A stretch of DNA of 64,000 nt, from contig OU612066.1 of assembly GCA_914767715.1 (NCBI GenBank), positions 19,940,283-20,004,282 on the forward strand, in the 5' to 3' direction. The DNA is from Membranipora membranacea. Its lineage: Eukaryota; Bryozoa; Gymnolaemata; Cheilostomatida; Membraniporidae. This document shows positions 3,727 to 62,500 of the stretch, in pieces (the first letter of the stretch is position 1; the number at the start of each line of letters is the position of its first letter). Both the position numbers and the translations under genes were made by a program. The notes beneath the pieces are model-generated. The model had not been told where the DNA came from. It was given only the letters and a program-made list of their open reading frames with translations, and ran no database searches.

Positions 3727-6700
3727 ATGGCGGATAGTGGCAGAGTATACCAGAAAAGTCTAGTCAGTCCGGTACTAAAATGGGGTCTGTTCGCCTTCAA
3801 TATGTTTTTCTGGGTAAGTGCTCCGCAGTTTTTGCTGTTGGTAGGATAGTAAAGGCCATTTCCTTCTTTTTCATTTCTTTTTAAATATAACACTACATAT
3901 AACATACAGCATACATTGTTGTAAACATTTCTGTCTATGATATTACATGGATGGATTTATTACAATCACTGACAAACAAAGGTAAAAGGCAAAAACATAA
4001 AAAACCAGGTCTCAGTGGTAATAGTTGAAAAAGCATGTTGTTGAGTGTGAGAATCAGATGTCGTAAAAAGCAGTCTCGGCCCCTTCATGCTGCAGTAACG
4101 TCCTTATGGGCGTTTATTTAGGAAGTCATTTGTAAAGTGTTCCTCGTCATGAATGTATCTGAGAGCGAGTCCTTAGTTTTGGTGGTCATCAGAGCATGAT
4201 ATTGGTGGATTACCAGTATCACCCCATACCACTTTATCTTGAGAAAGTGAGTCCATGTCATTGATGTCTGACAATACATATTGTACAGCTCCGCACATAT
4301 CATTACTTTATCAACATATTAGTTTCCCCACCGTATCCATCACAGTGATTTTCATTGGCTGCAAGATGAGTTGAGAGTCGTGCTAGTGGCAACTTTGCCT
4401 GCCCTTAGATTGTATACTTTTTTGTAACCTGATTCTCATCTTATGCGGTGTCCTAATTGTAGATTTGTGGGCTGATTCTTATAGCCATAGGAATATGGGC
4501 TTTCTTTATGACACGAGATATGAACACAAACACCAGTATGGATGAATCGAGAGATGTGTTTGATGTATTCTTTGACTTTACTATTATATTCATGGTCGTC
4601 GGATCGGTGATGTTCCTTCTCTCATTTTTCGGAATGCTTGGAGCTTTGAGGGAGAATATATGCCTGCTTAAAACTGTAAGTTACACTGAATGTAAGGTAG
4701 ACTTTATCTGCTCCAATTTAATTTTCGAATAGGATGGTTGGTCCGTCCCACTGCAAACAACCAAGATGGGGCTTGGCTGGCTTCCAGCTGTAGGGATACT
4801 CTGTTCACGGTATACTATAGGATGCCAGTATGGAGAAAAGGCTAGGTTCATAACTGCAAACATTGCTTGTAGCAATGTTTTCATTGAGAAAGCAGGTACT
4901 GTGTATCAGTTTGTCATCACAATATGAACTTGCAAACAGAATAAAACAAAACACCAACCATTAATTTCAGTGCCTTATTGCACCACCATTACCATTATCG
5001 ATGAGTATTTTGGTATCTTTGATATTGTTATAAAGTGAAGCATCCCTAACAACCCAAGTTTTACACGCTAAGTGCTCTTCAAAACATATTGACTATGACA
5101 ACAAGGAGCTAACTCCTTGATGGCAGTCTATCCTCTATACTGTACGCATGGCCTTGCCTCCCATGATAAAAGCTGTACAGCATTGTGTTTGCTCGAAGGA
5201 TTAGGATTAATCTATGCAAGGCTTTTATCACATTCCTATGGGAGTATTTTATAATAAACTAACCTCACCTTGCCTCATTTAATCTTCTTCTCTGAGTCAT
5301 AAATTTTTAAGTGCCATCAGCGTTATATTATTACATATGATAGGGCCGTCGGGCGAAGGGCAAAAGTCTGGGGGGCTCAGACTAGGTATAGGCTAGTTTC
5401 AAGTCTCCAACGGCTATGGGTGTACTGTATTTATAAAAAAATATGATTGCAACCATTCTGATGATTTACTGTTCGATCCAGTGGCACTTCTTGGAAAGCT
5501 GATAGGTAGACAGTTTGGTTTATTAGAAACAAGCTTTTATGAGGGCTCAACCTACTTAAAGACTACCAAAACACCTATGCATGTTATAGTCAGGCGGTTA
5601 CCTATGATAGAATTTTGTCAGATTTACATGGTAAAAAATTCAATGCTCTACTTGGCATGAATTATAAGGGAAGGTAACTTCCATTCCCAGCATTATGAGA
5701 TCGCAGCTTCCCGGAAGTGCAATACAAGCAACCAGCACTTCCGGGAGACTTTTTCATAAGTAACTGCATGACTATAACATGAATTGGTCTTCGGGAAGTC
5801 TTTAACTCTTGGTACTTACCAGGCTCTCAAAATTAGGAAATCTGAAAATTTTCTGTATTTCAATTTCTACAACCCTTCCTCAAAATGAAAATGAAGCCAA
5901 TGTTTTCCTCTCTTCTGCTTTATTACAGTTTGCCATATTGCTCGGGATCATATTCCTGACTGAGGTCATCATATCAATCACAGTGTTAGCTTTGTCAGGC
6001 AAAGCACAGAGAGCGATAGAGGAGCTATTAGCAGATAAAGCTATAGAGGATTACAGAGATGACATCAATCGTCAAAATATCATCGACTGGTTCCAGGAGA
6101 CAGTGAGTAGACTTGTCAGCTATCAGGGATTGTGGGATGTTGGTTAAAAAATCGCAAGTTTCAGTCACGCACCTCATTCCAAAGAATGGTGGCGAAGTAG
6201 TTTGTGCCGTAAACGAGGCCGCAAGGTCTGCGCCAATTTGCTCTCAATTGTAGGCAGGATAGTTATGTTAAAATTGAAAGATACATCACCAGATTGAACA
6301 TTACAGTTGCATCCTATGATAACGGATCGGCGTATATATATATATTGACCAAACACATAATATATAGCATATTTAGCATATATACATATAGCATGTATTG
6401 AGTATATATAAATAGCATAACTTAAGAGTTTATAGCATGTACATTTTCTCACACTTTTCGAGGCAATAGGCCTTCAAACGGCATTGGGAATCAACTGGTG
6501 TGACTGAAGACATCGTAAAGGGCAAGAAATTATCTACACTAATGCTACAAGCAGAAAATCTTGATCATCAACTATGGAGTTCTATGCCATCATCAAACGA
6601 CTCCAAATGCTCTTTGACGGCCATTGCTTTGACAGTTTGAGAGCCTGATTCCTTAACATACCCTTTTTAAGGATAACAAGGAATAACAAGAAGAATTCCA

Positions 6701-9830: not shown

Positions 9831-12800
9831 CTACATGTCAATAGACCTGTTCAGGAGCCAACTATACCTATACGCTAAACACCTGCTGCCGCCACTTTGA
9901 CGCTTTGTAATTGCCACCTTTTTTGGCAGTTTGAACATCTTGGTCAGGCTGAGTTTCTTTGTGAGTGTAGACCTCAACTCGCAAATCTGTGCATCTCTGG
10001 AGTAGCCTTTACTTTCCAACTGTTGCCTTACCGCTGAATGAGTTTTGTAGAAAAGTTCCGTAACATCAAGATGAAGGCCAGTTTCTTCCTGTACTTTTCG
10101 TGCTCTACGGAGCTCATTAGCAAATTCTGGAATCATCATATTCCTGAAGGCGTCTCCTCCATTGACCGATGCTACTATAGACACGACATCACAGTGGGTA
10201 ACATCAAAGTGGTCATGCCCAGTGCTGAACCAACCACTAACAGGTGTCGCATCTATATTATCCGTCATCCTCTCAGCTCCACCTATGAAGGTCAAGTATT
10301 TCCAAATCATGAAGAAGGCTACATGAACCATTAATCAAAACAATAAGGGTAAAGGAGAAACCAGTTCTTTTACCACAAAGCATAGCATCACATCGAGACA
10401 ATGTAAAATACAAATATCTTGACAAAAAAGCAGATGGCATGTGAGTTATTAATATTCAATCTAGCAATTGGTGTAATAGACCTGCTCACAAAAAGTTCAG
10501 TTCAGTTTGCATCACGTAGTCAAGCCAGTGGCAGCGTGATGTTCAGGCTCATTTTTTCCTGCATTGACTGTTATTGCTCAATCTGGAATACTTACGTATG
10601 GTCACAGTCTGACATGCTTGCAACATCAAGACCTGAAACAGAGAAACAGATCGTCATAATGAACTGTGTGTATTGATAGAGAGCAGGCCTAAGTTCAATA
10701 TTTTTTAACTTATTTTACCAAAGATGTTTGGTTATTTATTTTTTTTTATAATATTCAGAGGTAAAACAGAAATATATAGACTAGGGAATCCCTATGTTGA
10801 GCTGAATGGCAAGTCATTATAAATATGGGGCAGGTTGTTGTAGCTACATGTTAGATTAGGTTTCTAGCGTCAATTTTCTTTGCTCGTTCTAAGGACATTC
10901 CTTATTCACAAATAATATAACTGAAATTGACCTTGGACATAGGCTACCTACCTTTGGCCTTGATTTTAGAGAGCGAGAACACATCTGAAGCAAGATATCT
11001 TGGATAGCCAAAGGGAAATCTCTCGTTTCAACATAACCTCCATAGCCGTGACTCATATATACCAAAATCAATGCTGAGATGTTGGTTTGGGACTGTGCTT
11101 GCCTAATTTCATCAAGCAATTCTGCGGATGTTGGATCTTCTTTCTTGATTGGGACCACATCTAGGCCTTTGTCCAAAGCTTCCACAAAGTGTGCCACCTC
11201 AACTTCAAAGCCTTCTCGTTCTATTGTGGAGTACATCAGTAAGACAGTAGGTGGATTAGAGAGATAATAGAAACCATCTTGCTTTTCTGACCATTGTAGC
11301 AGCTTCTTGACCTCTTCATTATGGCATATGTCAAAGGCTGTCTGGCCTTTTCGATTTTTCGCACTCAGAGCAGCTTTTCGTAGATCATCGTCCAGATAAT
11401 CCAGGTATTTCTTGATGGTTGTGTACTGCACTTTACCGTTAAGCGTTGCTTCATCGGCACACGCAAGCATTTGGAGGCAACCATTTCCATGTGCGTAGAT
11501 ATAGCTGATGAAAGGAGCTGGAAAACAAAAGGTTTTGACAATTGATAATCTCAAATAATAAATATAAGGACATGGAAAGAAATGAATGAATACTCAAACC
11601 AATTTCAGCACTGGGTACATATATAAGGGATTTGAGTATGACTAGTAGATTGGCCAGGCCTTGCCAAATTTTGCGGGCAAACAGTGCAACACACTATAGC
11701 ATGTTGGGCTGCAAAGCTACTGCAACAGCAGACAATGCCAGCCTACCCATGGTTAATTGAGTGAGTTTTTCATAGTATTATACTGTGTTATATTGTTGGA
11801 AGGGGGGGGGGGGGGGGTTGGGGGTGGCAAAACAGATGGAGCATACTGTTAACATACCTCCAGTTGGTGTCAGATTCTCAATGTCCCATCTTGTGATTCT
11901 TTCCACAAGTTTTCTTAAGTGTTCCTGCTCACGTATACCTATCTCGTCTTTGAGCCGAACATTCAGACTATTTTCCCTCTGGTTTTGATCGAGGTAGCAT
12001 AATCCAGGCAAGTAGCAGAGCTGTTCAGTGGTGAAGCATTTAAGATCTGCCTGTATCACATCAGTGTTTCTTCGGAGAGCTAGATCTAATTTCAGTTTCG
12101 ACAATTGATTGTGATCAATAGAGAGCAAGCCTGATATGACGTGTGTTGGTAGGCAGTATGTTAATCTAGCTAGCATTTCAGGATTTACATGGAATGAATC
12201 TAGAGCGTATTCCAAGGGTGACCCATGGAGTTTGTTTTTCATGGATAGCAGATAAGAAAGTTCGGCAGTTTCGATGAAGATTTCGAAAATAAGTGAAATG
12301 TTTTTTACGCACTCACTGCTAGGCTCACCCTCTTCTCCCACACGTATTATCAGGTCATGGAGAACGGTGTTTTCAGAGTCATCTTGGGACACGATCAGAG
12401 AAATCTTTTCTTCGTCGGTTAGAACGAACAAGACGGTCTTCAGAGCTTCATGATAACCTATGCATCTTTGTAACACAGATTTTCCTTCGGCACCTTTTAG
12501 CTTTAGCACAGGTAGCTTTTTCCCCACTGGTAAGGCTCCTAACAAACACTCTAAAATCAGGCATTCTCCATTTTCAGCAGCCAAATGACACACAGTGTCA
12601 TTGGCCCCATCTTTCACAGTAAAAATGCCTTCATAGTCTTCAACTGCCAATGCCTCAAGGATAGCCTCCATTACTTTGAGTCGCTCAACTTGGGGACTGC
12701 TGCAGTGAGTTGCAAGAGAGTGGAGTACAGTATCCCCCTTGTCCTCGTCAGATACTGTGATCAAGTTTCGACATCTTTCTTGGCCATCAAGTTGCCCCAA

Positions 12801-14465
12801 AAGCACTTTCACAGCATCAACTTTCTCCATAGCTTGATGGAGTACCGTCCTACCTTTACTGCCCTTTTGCTTCATGAGCTTCAGTCGTTCGTCTGGGTTA
12901 AAGCATATAAACCAATCTTTGATCATATCATGATCACCATTTCTTGCGGCCAGATGAAGAACCGTATCCTTCCTGCCGTTTCCCTGGGACAAAAGACTCT
13001 TTTGGTCGTTTGGGCTGGCTGTTTTTATGAGCTCAAACACAGTGCGCAGTACATCTGCAGAATCGGTTTTTGAACATAATTCATGAAGTATTGTATCACC
13101 ATCTTTGGATTTAGTTTTGATCAGCTGGCATCTCTCTTCTGGACTGAGTGGGGATAGTATAGCATTAACAGCAGCGCTACTATGCAGTGCTCTGTGGAGC
13201 ACAGACTTTCCAAGATGTCCGGATGTTTTCAGCACATCTAACAATTCGTCTTTGCAAAATACGCTCAACTCGACCAAATATTTGAGCACATCTGGACATC
13301 CCTTATCAGCCGCAACATGAAATATCATATCTCCATGTTTGTCTTTCTGAAAGAGAAGCTTTTTCAGGGCTTGTTTGTCCAGACCGATCGGTCGCAGGAG
13401 CTTCGTAATCGCAGCATCTAATGTGGAAACGCATGATTTTGTGGCAAGATGGAGAGCGGTTTGATTGTCAATATTCAAAATTGCTAAGACCTGAAGCAGC
13501 TCCTCAGTCGAATCAACAAATTTGAGCATCTTGACAAAGAAAGCAGCATTAGACTCGTTTATCTGTGCCAACATTTCATTACGATCGGTGTCTTGGGATA
13601 TTAAGTCATCATCGATATGATCTTCAGGTGTGGCCGCACGGTGCAGTGCTGTACAGAGACCATTGTCAGGGATACACAAGAGTTCCATTAGCTCACGAGG
13701 GTCAAGGTCTTTTATCTTGGTATAAACGAAATCAATGACATTGCATTTCTTTAGCTTTTGACTTGCCATGATATGCAGAACAGTCTGTCCATTGTTGGTT
13801 ACCACCTTGAGGGTTTCCAGAATCGCTTGTGGTGACCCTGTCAGTGAGCCAAGTAAACAATCTAACAGTCGTTTACTTGTAGACTTGTTTTGAACTGCTA
13901 AGTGGAGAGCAGTTCTACCAGTACCATCTTGCAGCATGAGCACAGCTTTCCGATCTTGAATATCCGGGAGAGCAGAAAGCATGTCTGGAATCTTTTTACA
14001 TGCCCCTTTGTTTTCTACAGCAAGGTGAAGAGCCTGCGATTGAAATTTCTCATTGATTGTTGCCTTGAATAGTTGTATGCGCTCGGACGCCTCTATTGAC
14101 TTGAGAATTGTTATGAAATGATCAAAACTTCCTTTCTGAGAGGTGGCTAGTGACAGAGCAGTTTCCTTTGCGTTGTTCTCGATCTGTATAAGCTTTAGCT
14201 TTTCCTCAGCACTGTCGAGGATTGACATAGACAATGCAGATGACAACCATTCACTGTTGTCACATTGAATTGCAACATGTAATGGAGTGTTACCAAGATA
14301 ATCTCGCTGGATCATACACTCCAATAGTCTCGAATGGTCAAATTCGAACTCAATAAGCTGTTCCATAACATCCGAGTCATTGTTCTTGGCCAGCGTATGT
14401 AATGTGTTTCCCCCATTGGAGCTGCTGCCGGTTCCTTGCAATTGCCCGTACCGAGCCAAAGACAT
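9831..14465 (-). CDS. Ankyrin-repeat/caspase fusion protein, complete, four exons
   Basis: Exons: 14465-11858, 11517-10952, 10632-10596, 10282-9831 (phases 1, 0, 1), giving 1220 residues. Exon 1 encodes about 18 ankyrin-like units, each marked by T-x-LH-x-A (TPLHVAIQ, TALHLAVQ, TVLHLAARNG and others); exon 2 adds one more and the caspase p20 half. Catalytic His is H1026 in YMSHG. The 37-base exon 3 carries the nucleophile in LQACQT (C1065), 39 residues on, as in caspases. Exon 4 holds p10: AFRN at 1115-1118 aligns with the SWRN motif of the S1 pocket, REG at 970-972 with RSG of strand 1, and the end reads LRSTLTKKL. An Asp-bearing linker (DNID, 1078-1081) could be a processing site. QACQT replaces QACRG, and I see no CARD or DED. 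Inference: a cysteine protease activated through ankyrin-mediated partner binding or clustering. An acceptor just before the ATG suggests a 5' UTR intron. Confidence 0.88.
11802..11817. repeat. Poly-G/poly-C tract in caspase-gene intron 1
   Basis: Sixteen consecutive G on the plus strand, so C on the coding strand, just inside the 5' end of intron 1. Similar homopolymers occur at about 33668-33703 (C on plus), 22290 and 32622. They are length-variable tracts with assembly risk. Confidence 0.6.
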
Positions 14466-14739
14466 TGTCCCCCTGTAAGTAAGCGCAACATGATTATAAG
14501 TGAAACATCATACACAGACAAAACTCAATATAACATTCACATATCACTCGAAAAGTCCCTTTGTTGTCTTTTTTTCCTATATGATGCTCAAAACTAATGG
14601 AAAAAAAACCATTGGGTCACAATAGAAATCAGAAAATCCATTCCAACTGACAAATATTAAGGTCTGTCAACTAATGACAAAGAAGATAATGATGATTTTT
14701 CATGCCTCGCCTATCGGAGACATAGCATGAGATAGTTAA

Positions 14740-14950
14740 ATTGTTGTTTGATAAAGGCATCCCATTCCATGACGGTATTATTAGAAATCCATTTCCCATG
14801 AAATCCATTTCCCATGACATGAAACTTAGAATTATCTCCTCATTGGTAATAGAGAGACAACTTGAACTCAAGTTGGATTCAGTTGGATTTCCCAATGAAA
14901 ATGGGATTTCCATTGATTATTTATTGATTATTTAATATAGATACCAAGGT
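14740..14950. repeat. One arm of a composite inverted repeat
   Basis: Contains the words ATTATCTCCTCATTGGTAAT, CAAGTTGGATTCAGTTGGAT and GGGATTTCCATTGATTAT, which recur in both orientations at about 15130-15210 and 15553-15766. It appears to be a solo or partial arm of the same long palindromic element. Confidence 0.55.
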
Positions 14951-15212
14951 CGGGAATTTACCTAGTGGAACAGGTCACGCTTTTGGGAGCTGACCAGAAA
15001 ACAAGCGCCTTCGATGGCACGTTACTCATTACTATATAGTCCTCTGTCTGCCAATAGTTGAGTAAAATGATTAGAATGATTATTCACAATTCACATCCTT
15101 GTTCATCGCCAACAGATTAGGTATTTATATCAAATAATCATTAATTACAATCATTTTCATGGGGAAATCCAACTGAATCCAACTTGAATTCAAGTTGTCT
15201 CCCTATTACCAA

Positions 15213-15365
15213 TAGGCAAAAGCGCGACCTGTTCGACTGTAATAAAATTGATTATTAATAATCAATGGAAAATCCCATACAAGTTGAGAACTTCTGCTAA
15301 TGGGATTTTCCATTGATTATCAATAATCAATTTTATTACAGTCGAACAGGTCGCGCTTTTGCCTA
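15213..15365. mobile_element. Fold-back MITE copy 1 (TA-flanked, GGCAAAAGCG ends)
   Basis: The element reads TA-GGCAAAAGCGCGACCTG...CAGGTCGCGCTTTTGCC-TA. Arms of about 70 bp are nearly perfect inverted copies around a short loop (AACTTCTGCTA region). TA at both outer edges fits a TA target-site duplication, as in Tc1/mariner-type elements. Near-identical copies lie at 15767-15919 and 17478-17628. There is no coding capacity. Confidence 0.75.
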
Positions 15366-15473
15366 ATGAGGAGATAATTCTAAGTTTCATGTCAATATCA
15401 TTGAAAAACCGTATACCTAATCATAAAATCTATTCAGTTGGATTTCCCCATGAAAATGATTATAATTAACGAT

Positions 15474-15545
15474 TATTTAATATAGATACCAAGGTCGCGA
15501 AGTTACCTAATAGGTAAATTCGCGACCTTGGTATATATATTAAAT
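15474..15545. repeat. Palindrome with TACCAAGGTCGCGAA arms
   Basis: Left arm TACCAAGGTCGCGAAGTTAC and right arm GTAAATTCGCGACCTTGGTA meet at a CTAATAG centre. Single arms recur at about 14940-14965 and 15922-15950. The GGTCGCG word is shared with the adjoining fold-back MITE, suggesting related elements inserted into one another. Confidence 0.6.
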
Positions 15546-15552
15546 AATCAAT

Positions 15553-15766
15553 AAATAATCAATGGAAATCCCATTTTCATTGGGAAATCCGACTGAATCC
15601 AACTTGAATTCAAGTTGTCTCCCTATCATCAATGAGGAGATAATTCTAAGTTTCATGTCATGAAACTTAGAATTATCTCCTCATTGGTAATAGGGAGACA
15701 ACTTGAATTCAAGTTGGATTCAGTTGGATTTCCCCATGAAAATGATTATGATTAATGATTATTTAA
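15553..15766. repeat. Long near-perfect palindrome, about 105-bp arms
   Basis: The arms fold around a centre near 15659 (TTTCATGTCATGAAA). Mirrored words include ATGAGGAGATAATTCTAAG with CTTAGAATTATCTCCTCAT, and ACTTGAATTCAAGTTG. It abuts fold-back MITE copy 2. A palindrome this long should be unstable in replication and cloning. Confidence 0.7.
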
Positions 15767-15919
15767 TAGGCAAAAGCGCGACCTGTTCGACTGTAATAAA
15801 ATTGATTATTAATAATCAATGGAAAATCCCATTAGCAGAAGTTCTCAACTTGTATGGGATTTTCCATTGATTATTAATAATCAATTTTATTACAGTCGAA
15901 CAGGTCGCGCTTTTGCCTA
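15767..15919. mobile_element. Fold-back MITE copy 2
   Basis: Same ends and length as copy 1 (TA-GGCAAAAGCGCG...CGCGCTTTTGCC-TA), with the central loop in the opposite orientation (TTAGCAGAAGTTCTCAACTT against its complement in copy 1). This shows either inverted insertion or inversion about the hairpin. Confidence 0.75.
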
Positions 15920-17477
15920 ATATAGATACCAAGGGCGCGAATTTACCTACTCACAGGGAAATCAGAATTTTCATTTCCCATGGGAATTCCAGTTTCCAAC
16001 TGAGTGGAAAATCCATTTGGTAAATGGAAGAATCCTTTTTCCAAGCAGTTTCAGTAAGAAAGTTTTTGGCAAGGCAAACTGTTATCAACAACAGACTACT
16101 TACACATAGTTTGCTATGGACTTCTGAGTAACCATGAGCCACACAGAAATTCAGTTTTTTTGCCCTAATGCAAAAAAAGACTGGTTAAATGGTTTGTGTA
16201 AAAATGCAAGCTTGCAAACCACAAAAATTCATAGTTTTTCTGCTCACTATCAGAAAGGTAACAGCTAATAAAACAAATCACTCGATAACCAACTTGATTA
16301 CGGGTGGCTAACAGCTTGGTTCGCTTAAAACAGCATATTCGTGATTAGAAAATCCTCCACAGTCTAACCAAGCAATCAGAGACAACTCCTTGGTCTAACC
16401 AGCGTCACCAGCCTAAACAATTCTCTGGTTCCCAGATACCATTAGTAATAATAAGGATGTTTATTGAACCAAGGTTGAAAAATAGCAAGTATACTCTAGC
16501 CAAAAATGCTGGCTCCAATTGGTTGAGTTGGAGGGAGAGGGGGGAGACTGCACCTAACTAATCAGAGCCAACACATTGGCTAGGGTACTAAATAGTCGCT
16601 GTATTGATACTAGGTTAATATCCACATCAAGCAACCAAGGTTTGACATGAGGTCCATGAAAATGCAACTGACTCATTCATCTATAAATTGTCAACTTGGT
16701 TACTCCTGATGACAATAACATAAAATGGCAAAACATCGGGAGATTGATACAAAATCAAAGCCTGTATACCAAGAAGGGGCAGTTTCGGGTGGAGAGTCTT
16801 CAGGCACAACTTACCTATCCCTAATAATTCTAGATGTTATTACCACTACTCTACTGGCTACAATAGTGGGGTACTTCGCAGATCAGTAGGCTACGCCTTA
16901 CCTTACCTGCTCATTTGGTGGCAGAGTATGGTAGGTTTTTTTTATGAATCTGTGCTAGGTTAGACTTACTCTTATAAAATCATGGTTACATTTTCTGAAT
17001 ATTTGACAACAGCAGTTTGTGTGAGTGACTGATGCTACGATATTTTTAACAACATAGAAAAGGACAGATGACCATTACAAAAAAGTAGGCTTGAAAGCGC
17101 TGCCGCCATTTCACAATGGGATAGAAAAATTGTGGGACAACAGGACAATTGAATGTGAAATTTTGACAATACTTTGGAGTGGTGAGACCATAGACTTAGT
17201 ATACTAAGACCAAGTCGATGGGTGCGACCCTCTAATATTTATTTACTTATCAATGAAGCACTACTGTGGCTTCATAGCTAAGGTGGACTATAGGTGAGCC
17301 AAACAGCTATTTAAAATTGAATTAAGGACTCACCTTTAGAGTACTAGATCTGCTGTTGATTGTTACTGCTATGACCGACGAATGGCGAATGATACATGTT
17401 GAGGTAATTGTGACATGTGTATTTATACTGTGCGCCAAAGAGTGACTCTTGTTACTTCCTGGGAATGCATTAAATAT

Positions 17478-19757: not shown

Positions 19758-20028
19758 TTAAGTGCGGTCGGTCAGTTTTTCCAGTAGTGAAAGCAAAGGC
19801 GTGACATTAAAAGGTATTAGATTTTGCTGCTGCATTTGTAGGAGAGCGGCATGTAGATCAGAGATAAATGTGGAGATAGCTGTCAGGGAATCAGCTCTAG
19901 AAGGTGTGATGTCATCTTCTTCACCACTATCTGAGCCGCTGCTTGTCTCAGAATCAGTTTGGCTCTCATCTGAATCCATCTCATACGACATTAGAGCTTC
20001 TAAACCGCTGGTTATCTTCAAAACGCTG
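19758..20028 (-). CDS. Lines homologue terminal exon, copy 7E (intact)
   Basis: A 271-base exon with acceptor tttacag, entry phase 2 and an 89-residue reading frame to the stop. It has an acidic Ser/Asp/Glu-rich start (YEMDSDESQTDSETSSG) and then the LINES C-terminal signature NLIPFNVTPLLSLLEKL. It differs from 7A and 7B by only a few codons. It follows copies 5E and 6E, so the 3' three exons of Lines are complete here. No start exon lies nearby: it could be an alternative terminal exon of the upstream gene or an unexpressed partial duplicate. Confidence 0.7.
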
Positions 20029-20102
20029 CTGTAAATAAACCCAATAAACGTAAAGATACTGTAAAAAAATCTGCAGTTCACATAACTGAGTATATCTGTT
20101 TG

Positions 20103-21035: not shown

Positions 21036-21358
21036 CTGTACATAGTACATACCTCTACATAGTACAAACCTCTACATAGTACATACCTCTACATTGTACA
21101 TACCTCTACATAGTACATACCTCTACATAGTACGTACCTCTACATAGTACGTACCTCTACATAGTACATACCTCTACATAATACATACCTCTACATAGTA
21201 CATACCTCTACATAGTACATACCTCTACATAGTACGTACCTCTACATAGTACGTACCTCTACATAGTACGTACCTGTACATAGTACATACCTCTACATAG
21301 TACATACCTGTACATAGTACATACCTCTACATAGTACATACCTCTTCATAGTACGTAC
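21036..21358 (-). repeat. 17-bp minisatellite at the exon 6E splice donor
   Basis: About 19 units of AGGTATGTACTATGTAG (minus-strand reading), with variants GTACGT and GTTTGT. The first unit contains the actual 5' splice site of exon copy 6E (AG|GTACGT at 21359/21358), so the array is the start of the intron and repeats the donor motif. Confidence 0.85.
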
Positions 21359-21601
21359 CTGAGAATTTCAGGTCCCGCTTCTTCCTCACATCTCATAACT
21401 TCATCTAGTACTGCAGCTGACATGATAAGACTCTGTCTCTTATTGTTTATATGATGTAGTAAGGCTAAGAAGTAAGTGAGGAACCTCGTCTCTGGTGACA
21501 GTATCAGGTCTAACACAACTCTGTGATCATGTGATATACGAGTCAGAAAGTCAGAGAATAGCTCTACAGGGTCTAACCAATCTGCTACTGCCATTGCACT
21601 G
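21359..21601 (-). CDS. Lines homologue penultimate exon, copy 6E (intact)
   Basis: A 243-base exon entered in phase 2 (acceptor attag) and left in phase 2 (CTCAG|gtacgt). It encodes 81 residues containing WLDPVELFSDFLTRISHDHR and LDLILSPETRFLTYFLALL, the core Lines-family signature (hxDLxxSPETxFLxYxLxxL). It joins in frame to 5E upstream and 7E downstream. Confidence 0.75.
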
Positions 21602-22023
21602 CTAATAGATATACACAATGGTATCATAGAGACTTTCTGAAAAATTAGGATGTGTTTTTTTTTATGTTTCCAAGGTCGATAGATTTATCTAAGCATCCTA
21701 ACGCAGCCACAGGCTTTATTTCTCCGTGTCAAACAGAGCTAGGAGTATGGTTAATTGTGTCTAGCGAAGTTAGATAATGAGATGCCAAGTACCACAACAT
21801 GATGACATTGGAGACGTGGATGGTAGTGACTTTGTTTTATCATAGACTAACGATATTGAGCAAAAGTGTCTGTGACATTAACAGAATTGTGAGTTATTCT
21901 AAAGGACGATTCTAGCGAAATTTTATATCGAGATGTTTATGGTGGAGATAAATGCTCAGAATGTAAAAGTCTATCATCTGTAATAACTATCATTGAGCTA
22001 TATTTAAAATGCCTGCTGGATAC

Positions 22024-22204: not shown

Positions 22205-22969
22205 CTAAAATAAAGGCAAAACACATGGACATGCACCGATTAAACACCTCTCATAGTCTAATTTCTCGACAAGCTTTGTTTTAGGGAACACCCCCCCCCT
22301 ACAACAAATCTTGTCAAGACAGACTACTTCAACAACATACATTAGTTTCCCTTTCAACCAAAGGAAGACTGTGAGATGGCTAATTTGCAAGCCTTTCACT
22401 ATGTTGTGAAATGAAAAAACAAACAAGCTTGCGAATTTATTAAGACTAAGACTGTTTAATATGACACGTGGGGCCCATCAAAACCACCACCGTTCAGAGG
22501 ATTTTTTAAATTCTACAAATACACCTTAATCCTTATCAATTGTTTGGTTAATCAAACTCCCTGGCCTTGTTTAGAGTGAGACTCTGTGTGATAATCCTGT
22601 TCTTGTTACCAGAACGGATGTTTACTACCTGAATGTTAAACTAAAAACGCTAATAATAGGATAAAAATTGTAAACTCATATGTACATACTTTGGGAAATA
22701 ATATTGGTATTAGATTAGTAATTTATATCAATTAAAGCCTGTTTTACTGACAAATTTCATTGAATTCTTCAGGAACTTGGTCACTAAAATTGAGATTACT
22801 CAACTTTCAAGCCCCCAATGATATAGAAACCCTGTCCCTCAGGCTTTTCAATGATGCGGATGCTGACACGTTTGGAGTGTTGATGCTAGGTGAATAATGT
22901 ATTAATTGGACAGTTTGATAATAAAAATATATAATATAATAAAAAGTATGTAAGTTCATCATAGACTCA

Positions 22970-42400: not shown

Positions 42401-45400
42401 TCTAATTGTTAAGCTGAGTCCCTATCTATATATGCTAGCAAGAAGTAACACTCCTCAACTATGGGAACATCTAAGGAGTTTGTTTGTTACTCCTTAACTT
42501 AATCATTATTAGGCTAGGTAGGTAGGTTGATAGGCCTAATTTTCTACTATGAGTTCATTGGTTTCAACATTCATCTCATTATCCATACAAAGTAAAATTT
42601 GATGGTGCAAAATAATACTATTATGTGCAAAGCTAGATGGAATTGTCGCTCACCACTGGGCTAGATCAACTACACCAGCTGAACTGTTCGTTGAGATGAA
42701 AATTGATGATGATGAATGACTCAATCAATAATAATAAATTATCCAGCCAACTCCAACAGTCTCAGTTTATAAACCAGACTGAATAACTTTCCGCAACTTG
42801 AGTTATGATGGTAGTGTGTATTTTTAACTTGTAAGTAACCACGTTAATCCAGATCAGATGGTAACCTCAGCTTTCTTTTCCCAGTTCTGTCTGTAATTTC
42901 AGCTGGCAAAAAGTGTGCAGGGTGGAGATAAACTTAGCTTGTATTTTTAGATCAGACTATGTTTACCTAGAAAGGCTCGGTCAATGTACCACCCTTCATT
43001 GTGTCATGTAAAAGAAATGGAATTACTAGAATTGCTGTAATTTATGTAATTTGGTTTATAAACTACATTGGCTACTAATCGGTGCATCGGCTGCTTGGTC
43101 TAGGGGTATGATTCGCGCTTCGGGTGCGCGAGGTCCCGGGTTCAATTCCCGGAGCAGCCCATATTTTAATTTTTTTTTTATAACCACCTAAACAAACATA
43201 AACGCTCTTTGGTATAAAGCATTGTATAAATTGTGTATTCAGGCTATTCTACTGAGCTTTTGATCTTTATATGTTGTGGTTTAATGATTGGCCAACTGCT
43301 GTTAGCTAGTGCGCCTTTGTCAGATTTGGTCTCATACCTTATGAACCGTCTTGACGACATAATGTGAGACACTGTATAATCCATATCTGCAACTTTTGGG
43401 AGTAACAAACCGTATGTGAAGATCGTCCTAACCCTTGACATTCATCATCTTAGCATTTTAGTAGATGGTTAATTATTACCATAAGCCAGCAAGTGATATC
43501 AAACACCAAACACCAAAATAAAAATATGTACATCTCATTAGAGAAGAAGAAACGTGTGCTAGATTACATAGATGAGGGAAGAGCAGCGTCAATGTTAATC
43601 ATATATCTCATTTGTTTATTGTAGCCATGATGATGTATACATATTACGTAAAAATTGTGCCGACAGTTTACGCAAAAGTTGACGGAGACGTAAGTATGTT
43701 TTGTCAACTGGATAGTACTGAATATAATGACCGAGTAATATTGAATCTGCTATGAAGATTATTCTGTACCTTATATTAATTCATTCTGGTTTTTTTTTAT
43801 AACATTCAAGATCATTTATATCATCGTTTATCTCTATTATTGTGACATGTTAGTGGTGGAGTGTCTTTATGAATATACCATTTTAGCAAATTTCTCTATG
43901 CAAGTCTGCCAACAAGGAATAGAAAACATACACATACATTTACATTCTGCGCATGCTCAGCTCTGGGCATGAGCTGATCTCTGCAAAATTGAGCCTCGGA
44001 ATTCCGAAGCCATCTGATTGGCTACCTGCTCTGGTGGTATGCTCTTCGATGCGTGTGGAATTGATATTGATAGTTATTCTCTCTTGTCACTATTAGCTGA
44101 TTTTGATTGGCAGTTCATGCAGGGGCTATCCCATTCTCCCTGACCAAATTTTCTCTCAGAACCTAGACTAAACTCATTGTTCTTGCACATGCGCAATTTA
44201 AAGTCACGCATGATTTATACTTAGCCTTACGACATCTACTTTGTGGTAACTATAGCCTAGTTTATCAGTGATCTACATGCCCAGTCAGATCACGAGAGTC
44301 AGTATGATACATTTATAAGAATGTATAATATATAATGTTTGTATGTTTGTCTTTATCCAGGTCTTATACTCAAACCAGTTCTCTGTGACGAAGCATTTCA
44401 AATCTGTCGGAGCCATGAGCGGCGAATCAGGACTTCCAGGAGCTTTCTTCATATATGAGTTTTCTCCTATGATGGTCAAATATCAAGAAAAACGCAGGTA
44501 AGTCAGTCTAGAAAAGAATGTGGTTGCGGGTGTTGCCGAGATAAAGTAAGACAATTTCAAGGAGGTGATTGCGTTGGTAAACACCAGTATTGTCCAGGGC
44601 CTCTGAATGCGATGGGTGGAATATATCGCTTGTATTCCGACTGATTTACTCCATCATCTATCTTAGTCGCCCTCATAAGACTAGACAAGACCAGCATGCT
44701 CATTATTTATCTTTGAGACAAATCTTAGCACTCAGACTGGGATTCAATCGAAGTTAGAATAATTAATAGTCTGACCACTCAGACTAGTGACAATGATGGT
44801 ACTTGATAGAGCGGTTATCTGTGTACCTCATAGTCTGAGTGGTTACGCCATCCCCTCATATATTTGCACGTCTGTAAAAGGAATATGGTATTAAAAATAT
44901 CATTTTGTTTGCATACTTTGTGGTTGTCCTCTCCTGCTTAGAATGACTCGTCATTGAGATATCACCCTTTATGACCAGCATGGTGTTGTTTTTTTACAGT
45001 GTGTATCAGAGGCACTATTCAAAATTCTTAACATGTCTCATTGACCAGGGTATTGAATATTCTTGAGACCAGGATATTCCATACTTGACTACATGATATT
45101 TGACACTGTTGTAAAGGGTTTAAGAAATTGAATTAGGATAATGTTTAGTAAAACAGTTGCTTTCGGTAAAAAAATCATTTGGTTTCATACCTGAAGATTT
45201 GCTTATCATTTCTTTTAATAGGTCTTTATTCCATTTCCTCACCAGCTTGTGTGCCATCATCGGAGGTGTCTTTACTGGTGAGTCAACTATATTGAATCAA
45301 TTAAATAAAGAGCAGCAGAAAATTTTCTAACTCAAATTTGTTATTATTTCCAAGTCTGTAACTTTTGGAAGACAAATAATTTCCCCTGTTCGCTGAAAAC

Positions 45401-57576: not shown

Positions 57577-59592
57577 AGCAGCGATCTACATTGGAGAATA
57601 AAGTATCATAGGTTAAATGGGTGTGAAGAGAAAGCAGCAATGCCTGTTTACACTTACACTGCTACAGCATTGGCCCCTGGGACCTACATACATGCCTTTA
57701 CTTTGCCAATATGTCCGATATCAACCACCCAAAAAACACCAAATACTACAGGTAATCTGACTGGCCATGATAAAGCAGGCATTGGTTCGCCAGTAATTGC
57801 ATGTGTTGTTGATGCAAGGCGATTTAGTCCTGAAGCAATAACTCTGTTGGGTCTGTCTATGGCAAACACTACACCACCACTTTGTTACTTTGTACGTGGC
57901 CTGGAAGAGTGTGACTATCTCCATTGTCTCCACACTCACATATAAACAAAATGCCAAAAATGTGTTATCAATGCCACCATGGAAGGAGTTCATTGGTACA
58001 ACTACACACACTGGTGACTCACTAACTCAAAGTTCATCATACAATTGAATTGAAACTGACTGGCCTCAACCCTTGCACTTGGCTGTTGGTACTTAGAGAG
58101 TCCAAGTCAACCAGTGAGTCAAGGTGTCCCTGCCATCAACTTACAGTAACAGCATAATTACTATACTCTACGACCATTGCATTGCTACCACTACTCTTCT
58201 CTACTCCTGAGGAGTGGAATCTGATGATTCCGAGGAGATTTGATTCTCATGACATTTGATTTGTCTTTGTTAGAATTCTACCATGCAGAGTGGGTGTTAA
58301 CTGCGGAATTACATGTGGAGTAAGAAGATTACAAATTAAGGCTTATTAACTTGGGATAATTGTAATTATGTTGAGGATAATAAATATACATAGTGTACCC
58401 TTGGTGTTAGTTAGATGACTGCTGGGAAAAAGTGTGAGCATGGTAATGAGCTCTACAAAATTTATAGAAAAATACATCAGTGAAATAAGAGCCTTTATGT
58501 GATTGGCTATTTGTTGGGCTCCTGACCAATGAGAGAGACAGCCCGCTTAAAGTTCCTTGCCTACAAAATCAAAACCTTATTTTTACTACACACCTTTATC
58601 TTTACAAATCCTTTGCACCCAAGTGCAGTGTTCAACTAATTATTTTGCTTCAGATTCACAGAAAGCATTGTATACAACTCAAACTACCACATGCACTCTT
58701 CCTAACACCAGAGTAGTTGATACTGGTCTAAGGTTAGTAAACTGGCTAAATCTGAACTCACTCTCTTAGCTTTTGTTTACTTACAATTGAATTAACAATA
58801 CATAATATACAACACTTAACAATACATACATACATACAGTATACATATTTATTACTTACTACTATTTCTACTACCTATACATACATACTTCAAGCTAGAT
58901 CAATTGACCCATTAATTTATACTTGCTTGTACTCCTTCCTTGTATGTACTGTTGGTGTAAACTTCAATTTTTTGTTAGTACTAGTTAATAATTATTTGTT
59001 ACAACATATCAATATTTATTATCAACCTGGCTAGACTCTAAGTTGAGTTATCTCAGACTCCTGAACACCAAACATCATCAAACTACTAATTATTAGACTA
59101 TACTACTAATATTAGGCTAATATCAATCATATTAGTTGACTCAGTAACTCTTTTATTCTTGTTAATGATGCTACTTTGTCTTACAATCCCAACCATTCAG
59201 GATTCAGTCTCAGTTACTTTATCAACAAGATGGGTGATTAGATAGAAATGTTCCCAGTCTGTTCAGTCCCAGCAACACCCAGTTCATATGGCCAATAAGC
59301 TTAGTTCAATAGTAGATCTGTTTAGCTTGGATACATGATGTAAATGCTTGGCCAGGTGATTGTTAGCTATCTGAACATCCTATGCATGCAGGAGAAAGTT
59401 AACAGGAGCCGACGATAACATTTATGTCAATCTTATTGCAGTAGTCCGCGACCATGTAAGACATGTAAGTCCCAGGGCCCATGTCCGCGGCATAGATAGA
59501 CCTAGGCGATTGTTTCTTCTTGACTTTATTGAACCTTAATTCAGCTAATCAATCAATGTATTCTCACATTTGTAGATTCCCACACTGCCAGT
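57577..59592. promoter_or_regulatory. Divergent intergenic region, TYW3 / NCAPH2
   Basis: About 2 kb between start codons on opposite strands. Both genes show 5' UTR acceptors, so promoters and non-coding first exons must lie here. Overlapping open frames at 57640-57945 (plus) and 57684-58011 (minus) carry no family motif I recognise. 58560-59120 is AT-rich with simple repeats (ACATACAT type). No promoter element can be named. Confidence 0.4.
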
Positions 59593-62500
59593 ATGGAGGA
59601 AATGATAGAGAGGTTCCACCATCTGTTGAAGCCAATACGAGATCTTGAGCAGAATTGGTCCGTAGATTTAGCGGAGGAACTGACGCAAGCGCTGCAATCT
59701 CTCAGTGAACAGATGATCTCATTCGGTCAGAATGGAGATAAGATTATTGACTTCAGTAAAGCTGCTCTCATCATCCAGGGCTCCGCACATGTCTACTCTA
59801 AAAAGGTGAAGCTACTCAACATAAAACATGTGGACATGAATGTTATCTTGGACACCAAAAAGTCATGTCTCCATGTAAAAATGGACAATAGCCAATACTC
59901 ACCTAATCGTTCTATACAAAGAGTTTTGTTTTTGCTGGCATTATTTAAGTTTTATGGTTACCGCTATGTTGCCAATAATCGATGACACTGACTCTTTTCC
60001 TTTGTTTTCAGGTTGACTATCTCTACAAAACGGTATATGATATGAAGGATTGGATGGAGAAATTATGGTGAGTCTCTATCTACTTGCACTCCTGCTAGAT
60101 TTTGTAAATATTATGATACTGAAACTCTTGACCATAACAAACTCTTCACATAATATTAAGTACATTTTTGCTCCAGCTATTACAGTTCAATCGCAATGTA
60201 TTTAATCGATTGACAACAGATATGACTGTTGTCAATTGTGTCACACCTGTATTCTCAATCAAAGGCCTCAATTTTCTCATCTGACTGAAAGATCAAACAG
60301 TAATTTGTGGGTATAAAAGGCTAATAATTCATTGTTATTTTTTTAATTGGCGGGCATTTAAATATCATTGCTTGACAATTACAAAATATAAGCATCAATG
60401 AAAGGGTTAAAGGACATCTTTAGCACTTCTTATCGCATCTATATTCTATATAATTTATTTATAGGGAGGTAGAAAAGAAGAGCAGATCTGGACGTGTACG
60501 TAATGAAGGAGATCATCCAGACCTACACATTGAAGAAGATGAAGATGATGAGCTTGATCTTAGTTATATCAAGGTATTATTTTACCAAATACTTTTTATT
60601 TGACAAGTTTGCTTCTGGTGCACCATTGTATAATTTGGTTTTCAAAATAACACAAGATTAGGACACATCAAATCTGTTATCTGTAAATGGGTCTTTAAAA
60701 AAATGGACCAAATTACTTTGTGAAATGGAAATACAATTACTTTGTCAAGTGCTCAAAACTTATCAGGGCTGCTGGTTACATTTCCTTATAAACAATTTCA
60801 CAACCATGCTATGTGTTTGATAATGAAATGCTACTACCAGCAACCACTGTGGAGTAAGGGCACTTAAACTCAAAGCCCATGATAATCTGGTCAAGAATTT
60901 AATATGCAAATAATGTTTTCATATCTTGTTACAGGAAGATGATACATGGTTAGATGAAGCACAGATTCAAGATCAGATCGATGTGAGTATATCTGCTTAA
61001 TAATGTCCAACTTCCTGAATTTATAGTTTTTGTGTATTATGTCCAGGGCGTTATACACAGTCGGAAGATAGGCTACTTATTTGTCATGCACTACATGCCA
61101 GGGAGCTACCATTTCATAGACTCAGATACACTTATTAGTTATTATCAATTGCCCTTCGATCGCAGCCCTGTATTGTGATGTGCATTTGTAGAATTCACCC
61201 CCTGTATACGAGTAATCTCAAAAGTAAACTAAATTTGTTAATTTTAAAGTGTCATTTTTTTGGTATTCTTTCCCCTTCTGACACTCAGAGATGTAGTAGC
61301 TGATTGAATTTAACACTCTTTTTGTTCAACAGGGATCAGTACTGTTACCTCCTAAACCTATGAAACTAACAGATTCTCTAAATCTCAAGATTCCTCTCAA
61401 GAGGTAAGTTCTGAGCAATGTCCGCGTCATAGACAAAACACATCGTTGTCTACGGATGACTCTGTGAGAAGTAGAAGTACTAGCCTTTTATCCTAGAACG
61501 ACATATCTGCTTCTTGGAGACTATTCATTGGGGTCTAATGAGAAGTGCCAACCCTGATGTATTGATATCTGTAGGTGTTAGGGGCGACATTCGGTGTTGA
61601 CAGTAGTCAGTGTTGACAGTAGGTCTCGGTGTTGATAGTATGTTGACAGTTGACAGTAGGTGTTGACAGTAGGTGTTAGGTGTTCGACATTCCATTGTCA
61701 AACTCAGTGTAATCTGTGGTTTATGCTCTGACCTTTTGAGTTGCTGTCTTAAAGCATACAACGCTAGCACCACTAGATATAAATCCACTTGCAATTTGCC
61801 ATCACAGATATGAAATGTATTCAATAATCCAAATCCTAAATATAATAGCTCTGGCTCTGCACCACAGGGCGGTCAGCAGCCCCTAAATCCCAATGGCTGC
61901 AAAAATCTGAATTAAATTGAGAAGTTTTGTGTATAATCTCATAGAAAAGCGTGATTTTTTTTATTGAAGGCAAAAATATTGTTTTTGTTGATGATTTTTC
62001 AATTGACAGGACTGTTTATGTATTTAAATTAAAAGAAACAAGAGATAACTGCTTTAATTCTAGAAACAATTACTTTTTTACATCAACTTTTTCCAGCAAT
62101 ATGTTTATTTCGAGAGTATTTACACTTGGCCAATCATATTGGGTATGCCTGTTACTGAAACAAAATGGTGGAAAAGGGTTTGCAATTAAAATTTTCTAAT
62201 TTAATATTTTTTTAACATGTAAATTTAGAAAGAGCACATCATTACGCATCAGATATCGAAATAATATGATTTTTGTGGTTGTCTGCTACTTTAACAATAT
62301 CAACGCCACCATTCTTTCTCTCACTAGTTTGATTTTCTACCATTACTTTAGCTTCCTGTATTTTGTCTTAAAGTGCAACCAAGGTTTCAAACAACCTCTC
62401 ATTGATGGCCATTGATTAATAGCAGATTGCACCTTCTGCATGGGGAAAAAGACAAAATATAATTCGGATGATTATTCAGCCAGAATTCTTGTGAAACATT

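Follow-up and report, generated by a model that had tools for sequence, protein, structure and literature searches.

The ankyrin-caspase locus

The 64,000-nucleotide stretch of Membranipora membranacea DNA analysed here (the window) carries on its minus strand, from position 14465 to 9831, a gene that joins a long arm of ankyrin repeats to a caspase. It comprises four exons and three introns, and its coding sequence of 3663 nucleotides (nt) specifies 1220 amino acids plus a stop codon. Exon 1 (11858..14465) provides the start codon and the ankyrin solenoid (residues 1-869) and closes with a phase-1 donor, GGAG/gtatgtta. Exon 2 (10952..11517) contributes two degenerate ankyrin units, the linker LLxWSxxQxGFYYL and the p20 subunit as far as RPK, including R970 and H1026. 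Exon 3 (10596..10632) measures 37 nt and encodes VLMLQACQT, with the beta strand VLMLQACQTVTI that carries the nucleophile C1065, and exon 4 (9831..10282) holds the intersubunit linker with D1081, the p10 subunit with FRN (R1117) and LRSTLTKKL, the C-terminal tail and the stop. The introns, all GT..AG and all on the same strand, are of 340 nt (11518..11857, phase 1), 319 nt (10633..10951, phase 0, following immediately on the PK of the p20 exon) and 313 nt (10283..10595, phase 1).

A preliminary description of this stretch had proposed that four phase-matched exons join the two modules, which the splice sites, the 1/0/1 phases and the same split in two paralogous loci uphold at the level of sequence. 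Its residue numbers H1026, C1065 (QACQT), R970 and R1117 (FRN) are all right on the spliced translation; it spoke of four junctions, of which there are three. We infer that the four exons are transcribed as a single mRNA. An acceptor-like TTACAG (14466..14480, minus strand) precedes the start codon by seven bases and is possibly the end of an intron in the 5' untranslated region or a sign of room for an upstream coding exon.

The ankyrin arm

The ankyrin frame extends over 909 codons from stop to stop, a length not expected by chance, since the longest stop-free frame in 60 simulated windows (first-order Markov, same size) was 192 codons. A motif scan gave one row in exon 2 and 18 in exon 1, the latter spaced about 40 residues apart and including one, at 79, that is probably spurious; the earlier count of about 19 ankyrin-like repeats was a fair one. 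An extra unit at residue 18 fell below the scan threshold and was read by eye. The period in exon 1 is near 40, compared with 33. Pfam Ank_2 matched the spliced protein in eight stretches (2.3e-29), and the AlphaFold (AF2) model, with a mean predicted local distance difference test score (pLDDT) of 77, shows helical repeats and is confident to about residue 780. The PDB matches returned by Foldseek for this model are ankyrin proteins, the nearest long solenoids being ankyrin-1, ankyrin-B, NOMPC and TRPA1. The Ank_2 matches, the helical model and the Foldseek result together identify the arm as tandem helix-turn-helix repeats of the ankyrin type. Protein databases yielded 25 matches to the arm at 23-33% identity; among the seven whose sequence was inspected, P0016, P0019 and P0037 look by eye like bacterial ankyrin proteins.

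The caspase domain

Peptidase_C14 (PF00656) matched residues 969-1181 of the spliced protein with 1.2e-11 and 45.2 bits, against a cut-off of 21.4, and thus the profile search recommended in the preliminary description recovered both the ankyrin and the caspase model. Sequence and predicted-fold comparison (Pfam, PDB) likewise returned ankyrin repeats and caspases, and the 50 rows listed by VIA-align were caspases exclusively, which leaves room for other families beyond them. A fold search recognised the caspase fold in a model built for the relative P0007 in place of the window protein.

The catalytic dyad is present, with H1026 in SHG and C1065 in QAC, as are R970 (residue 100 of the exon-2 row), Q1063 and R1117, which we take to be equivalent to the Arg, Gln and Arg of the caspase-3 S1 pocket that bind Asp at P1. 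Both the histidine and the first arginine are kept in 14/14 p20 rows of the family alignment, in which the window is included, and the arginine at the FRN position in all four aligned p10 rows. The earlier statement that the catalytic landmarks are retained therefore applies to the relatives as well, and because H1026, C1065, Q1063, R970 and R1117 are kept, the window protein is likely to be an active Asp-specific caspase. It had also been suggested that QACQT and FRN may shift specificity. This is weakened by their wide occurrence: QACQ is found in 5/5 readable members (QACQT in the window, QACQV in L030, P0007 and P0009, QACQK in L029), an F or Y precedes the p10 arginine in the window, P0001, P0006, L029 and L030, and the S1 residues are retained. 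In the more distant L015, L031 and L032 an A stands before this arginine.

Paracaspases and metacaspases cleave after Arg or Lys and have acidic S1 residues. Both S1 positions are basic in the window gene, which speaks against membership in either group, neither of which was represented in the alignment. For self-cleavage, D1081 in the p20/p10 linker is the best candidate; the Asp-Ala pair at this site is common to the window, P0001 and P0006. Within the 1220 amino acids, Pfam detected Ank families and Peptidase_C14 only, with no CARD, DED or DD, and a match to the STAND NTPase expected of an NLR was not obtained at E-values up to 1. In the upstream same-strand frames, 1089 of 3261 amino acids were scanned by Pfam without any match, and hence without a CARD, DED, DD or NTPase, a short upstream exon being still possible.

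A family of ankyrin-caspases

The same architecture, which the preliminary description had proposed to seek elsewhere, was found at two further loci of the genome, L029 and L030. Both repeat the exon order of the window gene (ankyrin, p20, small QAC, p10) on a single strand, with Ank_2 matches of 1.7e-9 and 6.4e-14 in the large ankyrin exon and p20 matches of 3.2e-12 and 1.1e-11, respectively. The nucleophile strand again occupies a separate exon, modelled at 64 nt in L029 and 58 nt in L030. Intron phases are 1/0/1 in 3/3 loci, intron 2 also agreeing in place; at intron 3, the sole phase-1 donor candidate was picked in both L029 and L030, and the exon-4 acceptor is phase 1 independently. Relative to the window gene, identity is 37% for the p20 exon of L029, 44% for that of L030 and about 22% for the two ankyrin exons when aligned locally. 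The three genes are widely separated, one being on contig 2 and two on contig 1 with about 9.8 Mb between them, and no second copy was found within the window.

That the ankyrin-caspases are a real multigene protein family and not an accident of gene prediction is well supported, because at least two further genes in the genome share the four-exon anatomy and the phases. The architecture is evidently old, given that anatomy and phases are shared while the p20 and ankyrin exons have diverged. A recent chance fusion was rejected, as the paralogs are diverged and far apart.

Among environmental sequences, 15 relatives of the caspase exons were found, 36-90% identical over the aligned part, 13 with p20 and two with p10. 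By eye, an ankyrin-like segment (GNxxLHxLA or variants such as GGSxIHxLT) precedes the caspase part in 11/14 p20 rows, the other three beginning too late; Pfam detected Ank in 1/14 and Peptidase_C14 in 10/14. Most of the named positions of LLxWSxxQxGFYYL, which joins the ankyrin arm to the first p20 strand, are invariant across these rows. P0007 and P0009 are read-through copies across the exon 3 position. P0008 is 99% identical to the p20 exon of L030, and P0001 92% identical to the p10 exon of the window, C-terminal tail included; for this reason some of the environmental sequences must come from the source species or its near kin. None of 2447 candidate full-length proteins contained the window caspase region; the matches were mostly single-exon calls, and intron-split genes would therefore escape such a search. 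Viral and prokaryote genome collections gave 47 and 56 pattern matches, respectively, and no relative.

Three further relatives of the ankyrin-caspases carry p20 and p10 in one frame (L015:2718-3440, L031:742-1533 and L032:1032-1781, all on the minus strand). No ankyrin match was found near them in the 9.9 kb examined, and they are possibly intron-less or ancestral forms.

Other caspases in the genome

A PF00656 profile search of the assembly (339 Mb, 18 contigs) returned at least 145 matches, counted as places and not as genes. The window gene is not among them because 140/515 candidates were scored. From these matches 24 loci of about 10 kb each were picked by hand, not at random, the last four for a match resembling the window p20 exon or a single-exon relative. 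Two of the 24 are the ankyrin-caspases L029 and L030, 12 have a long LRR-ROCO-like frame (LRR, leucine-rich repeat), and neither was detected in ten.

The 12 LRR-ROCO-like loci (L011, L012, L014, L017-L020 and L023-L027, on contigs 1, 2, 3, 5, 8, 9 and 10) all belong to the first 20, and have a frame of about 660-770 codons upstream of caspase exons that are mostly of QACAG type. In six of them searched with Pfam, Roc was matched in 6/6 (above the cut-off in three), COR-A weakly in 4/6 (none above the cut-off) and LRR in 2/6 (one above the cut-off). They look like LRR-ROCO-caspase genes and hence like a second wiring of a solenoid to a caspase. They resemble the ankyrin-caspases in having a long upstream repeat exon followed by caspase exons, and differ in their GTPase module, the QACAG-type active site, their clustering in the genome and their place in the p20 tree, a midpoint-rooted one with several long branches in which the two kinds separate at moderate support. 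The preliminary description had missed both that the window gene is one of a multigene family and that many other apparent solenoid-caspase genes exist in this genome.

At L013, a canonical QACRG exon is preceded at a distance of about 5 kb by a CARD-like frame (7.9e-5, just under the Pfam cut-off), and the usual CARD-type wiring may therefore be present alongside the solenoid-caspases. The top-scoring PF00656 match (L009:6681-7730, plus strand; 8.9e-38 for the frame) has DSS at the QAC position and is likely a dead, FLIP-like caspase homologue.

Other features of the window

Nested palindromic repeat elements with arms of up to 179 nt occupy 14813-15950, where they immediately precede the ankyrin-caspase gene. 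Between 19758 and 32014 on the minus strand, several partial copies of a Lines-type gene are interleaved with a 17-bp tandem repeat, TACATAGTACATACCTC. Pfam matched LINES_N at 21349-21684 (3.6e-9) and, below the cut-off, LINES_C at 19761-20102 (3.3e-5), both on the minus strand, and Lines-like frames also occur at 22807, 24448, 27483, 30647 and 31595; the arrangement looks like a segmental duplication. The plus strand bears a tetraspanin-like exon (5806-6144; 4.5e-4, under the Pfam cut-off), a tRNA-Pro (43089-43160) and the N-terminus of condensin II CAP-H2 (59533-59982; 3.6e-24).

Discussion

The best fold and sequence matches to the window caspase are metazoan caspases (C14A; caspase-2, -3, -6 and -8 and Drosophila drICE). 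It shares with them the order p20-linker-p10, SHG and QAC, the PK before the nucleophile strand, the S1 arginines and the C-terminal STLTKKL, and the window gene is a caspase variant and not a new kind of enzyme. Unlike them, it has an ankyrin arm of about 900 residues abutting the first p20 strand and QACQx in place of QACRG, and CARD, DED and DD were not found. Textbook initiator caspases are recruited via CARD or DED.

The nearest precedent among the passages available is that of the LRRs-caspase and TNFR-caspase hybrids of amphioxus, which were put forward as linking recognition directly to apoptosis and in which a repeat or receptor module is likewise joined straight to a caspase; there, LRR or TNFR modules are combined with QACXG, in contrast to ankyrin with QACQT/V/K in the family of the window gene (PMC2575513). 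In the TRADD-N proteins of Amphimedon, according to the portion of the paper available, ankyrin repeats or a caspase are alternative C-termini behind Death-like and TRADD-N domains, so that both occur as modules of animal immunity; in the window gene they are fused to each other, and Death-like and TRADD-N domains were not found. The same source describes bacterial LRR-GTPase-COR proteins with variable C-terminal domains (PMC8195603). Another lineage-restricted caspase architecture is the caspase-X of Acropora, described in passages of its paper as a double caspase domain, in some cases with a glycosyltransferase; the word ankyrin is absent from the main text (PMC4715348). The legend of a figure in the paper on Dysidea avara NLRs names CASc and COR as domains, so sponge proteins with a caspase or COR domain had already been depicted (PMC12909245). 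No ankyrin-caspase occurs in the passages available of PMC2246300, PMC6321704, PMC12314368, PMC6040629 and PMC4715348. Among the matches listed from the open-access literature, no ankyrin-caspase fusion was recognised by title and start of abstract, and no ROCO-caspase fusion was found; the phrase 'ankyrin-caspase' in a passage of PMC13429693 is part of the name of a UPA-CARD domain and unrelated.

We consider it rather probable that the window gene encodes a single-chain, ankyrin-gated caspase that would not need a CARD or DED adaptor. For such a protein we infer activity, ligand-driven dimerisation, cleavage at D1081 and a role in immunity or cell death, which would be connected as follows. 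The N-terminal arm, with its solenoid of some 20 long ankyrin repeats, would bind a ligand or scaffold in place of CARD or DED, and ligand binding or clustering would bring two caspase domains together to dimerise. The dimer would cut after Asp in the p20/p10 linker (D1081) to yield an active Asp-specific protease, which may start cell death or an inflammatory-type response. The LLxWSxxQxGFYYL segment is the place where a conformational change could pass from arm to protease.

Several observations weigh against this reading. Residues 782-869 score below 50 in pLDDT and are not confidently folded, so that of the solenoid of 900 residues originally claimed, the part up to about residue 780 stands and its full extent is not established. 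The TM-scores of the ankyrin model against its PDB matches are low (0.15-0.5 by query length) and the root-mean-square deviation is often large. Exon 2 alone gave no Pfam match at 0.01, the caspase match requiring the spliced protein. The P0007 model matches caspases, but its mean pLDDT is 60 and falls below 50 from residue 178 on, QAC strand included. L015 does not keep D1081, and D is followed by P in the L029 and L030 linkers. Codon usage of exon 1 against the caspase exons correlates at r 0.45, below the wrong-frame value of 0.68, and is uninformative; since the wrong frame correlates better, it is evidence neither way.

A rather unlikely alternative is that the arm serves as a scaffold for location and substrate, anchoring a regulated caspase to a partner in the cytoskeleton or membrane so that proteolysis is local and non-lethal, with no sensing of pathogens or danger. 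The nearest solved long solenoids are indeed scaffolds and channels, and the three genes are dispersed, with a single copy in the window, unlike the clustered ROCO-type caspases; a fold match, however, carries no functional information. Against this alternative, the lower identity of the ankyrin exons than of the p20 exons would fit a varied, fast-changing ligand surface, though plain drift as well. Quite improbable is a pseudoenzyme or decoy that binds and does not cut, in the manner of a FLIP-type inhibitor. The same genome does contain a caspase-like gene that lacks the nucleophile, at L009, and QACQT departs from QACRG, but the window gene keeps H, C, Q and both S1 arginines, and H and R are invariant in the p20 rows. 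That two adjacent genes for separate ankyrin and caspase mRNAs were wrongly joined is hardly credible and was rejected on the phases and anatomy shared by three loci. A transcript that retained intron 1 would encode a protein with ankyrin repeats alone, ending at 11778, but the exon 2 frame has no start before its ankyrin-like units, which by eye extend the solenoid, and junction and phase are identical in 3/3 loci.

If the ankyrin-gated caspase is real, a solenoid replacing CARD or DED in a multigene family would be a further mode of caspase activation, and the ankyrin-caspase would allow the binding of a ligand and the activation of the protease to be tested jointly in a one-protein system. 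More tentatively, recognition may have been wired to proteolysis without Death-fold adaptors twice in this animal, in the ankyrin-caspases and in an expanded LRR-ROCO-caspase family, each gene being a one-polypeptide inflammasome whose sensor is a variable solenoid and whose effector is a caspase. The presence of ankyrin-caspases and apparent LRR-ROCO caspases in one genome suggests that the fusion of recognition repeats with caspases happened more than once.
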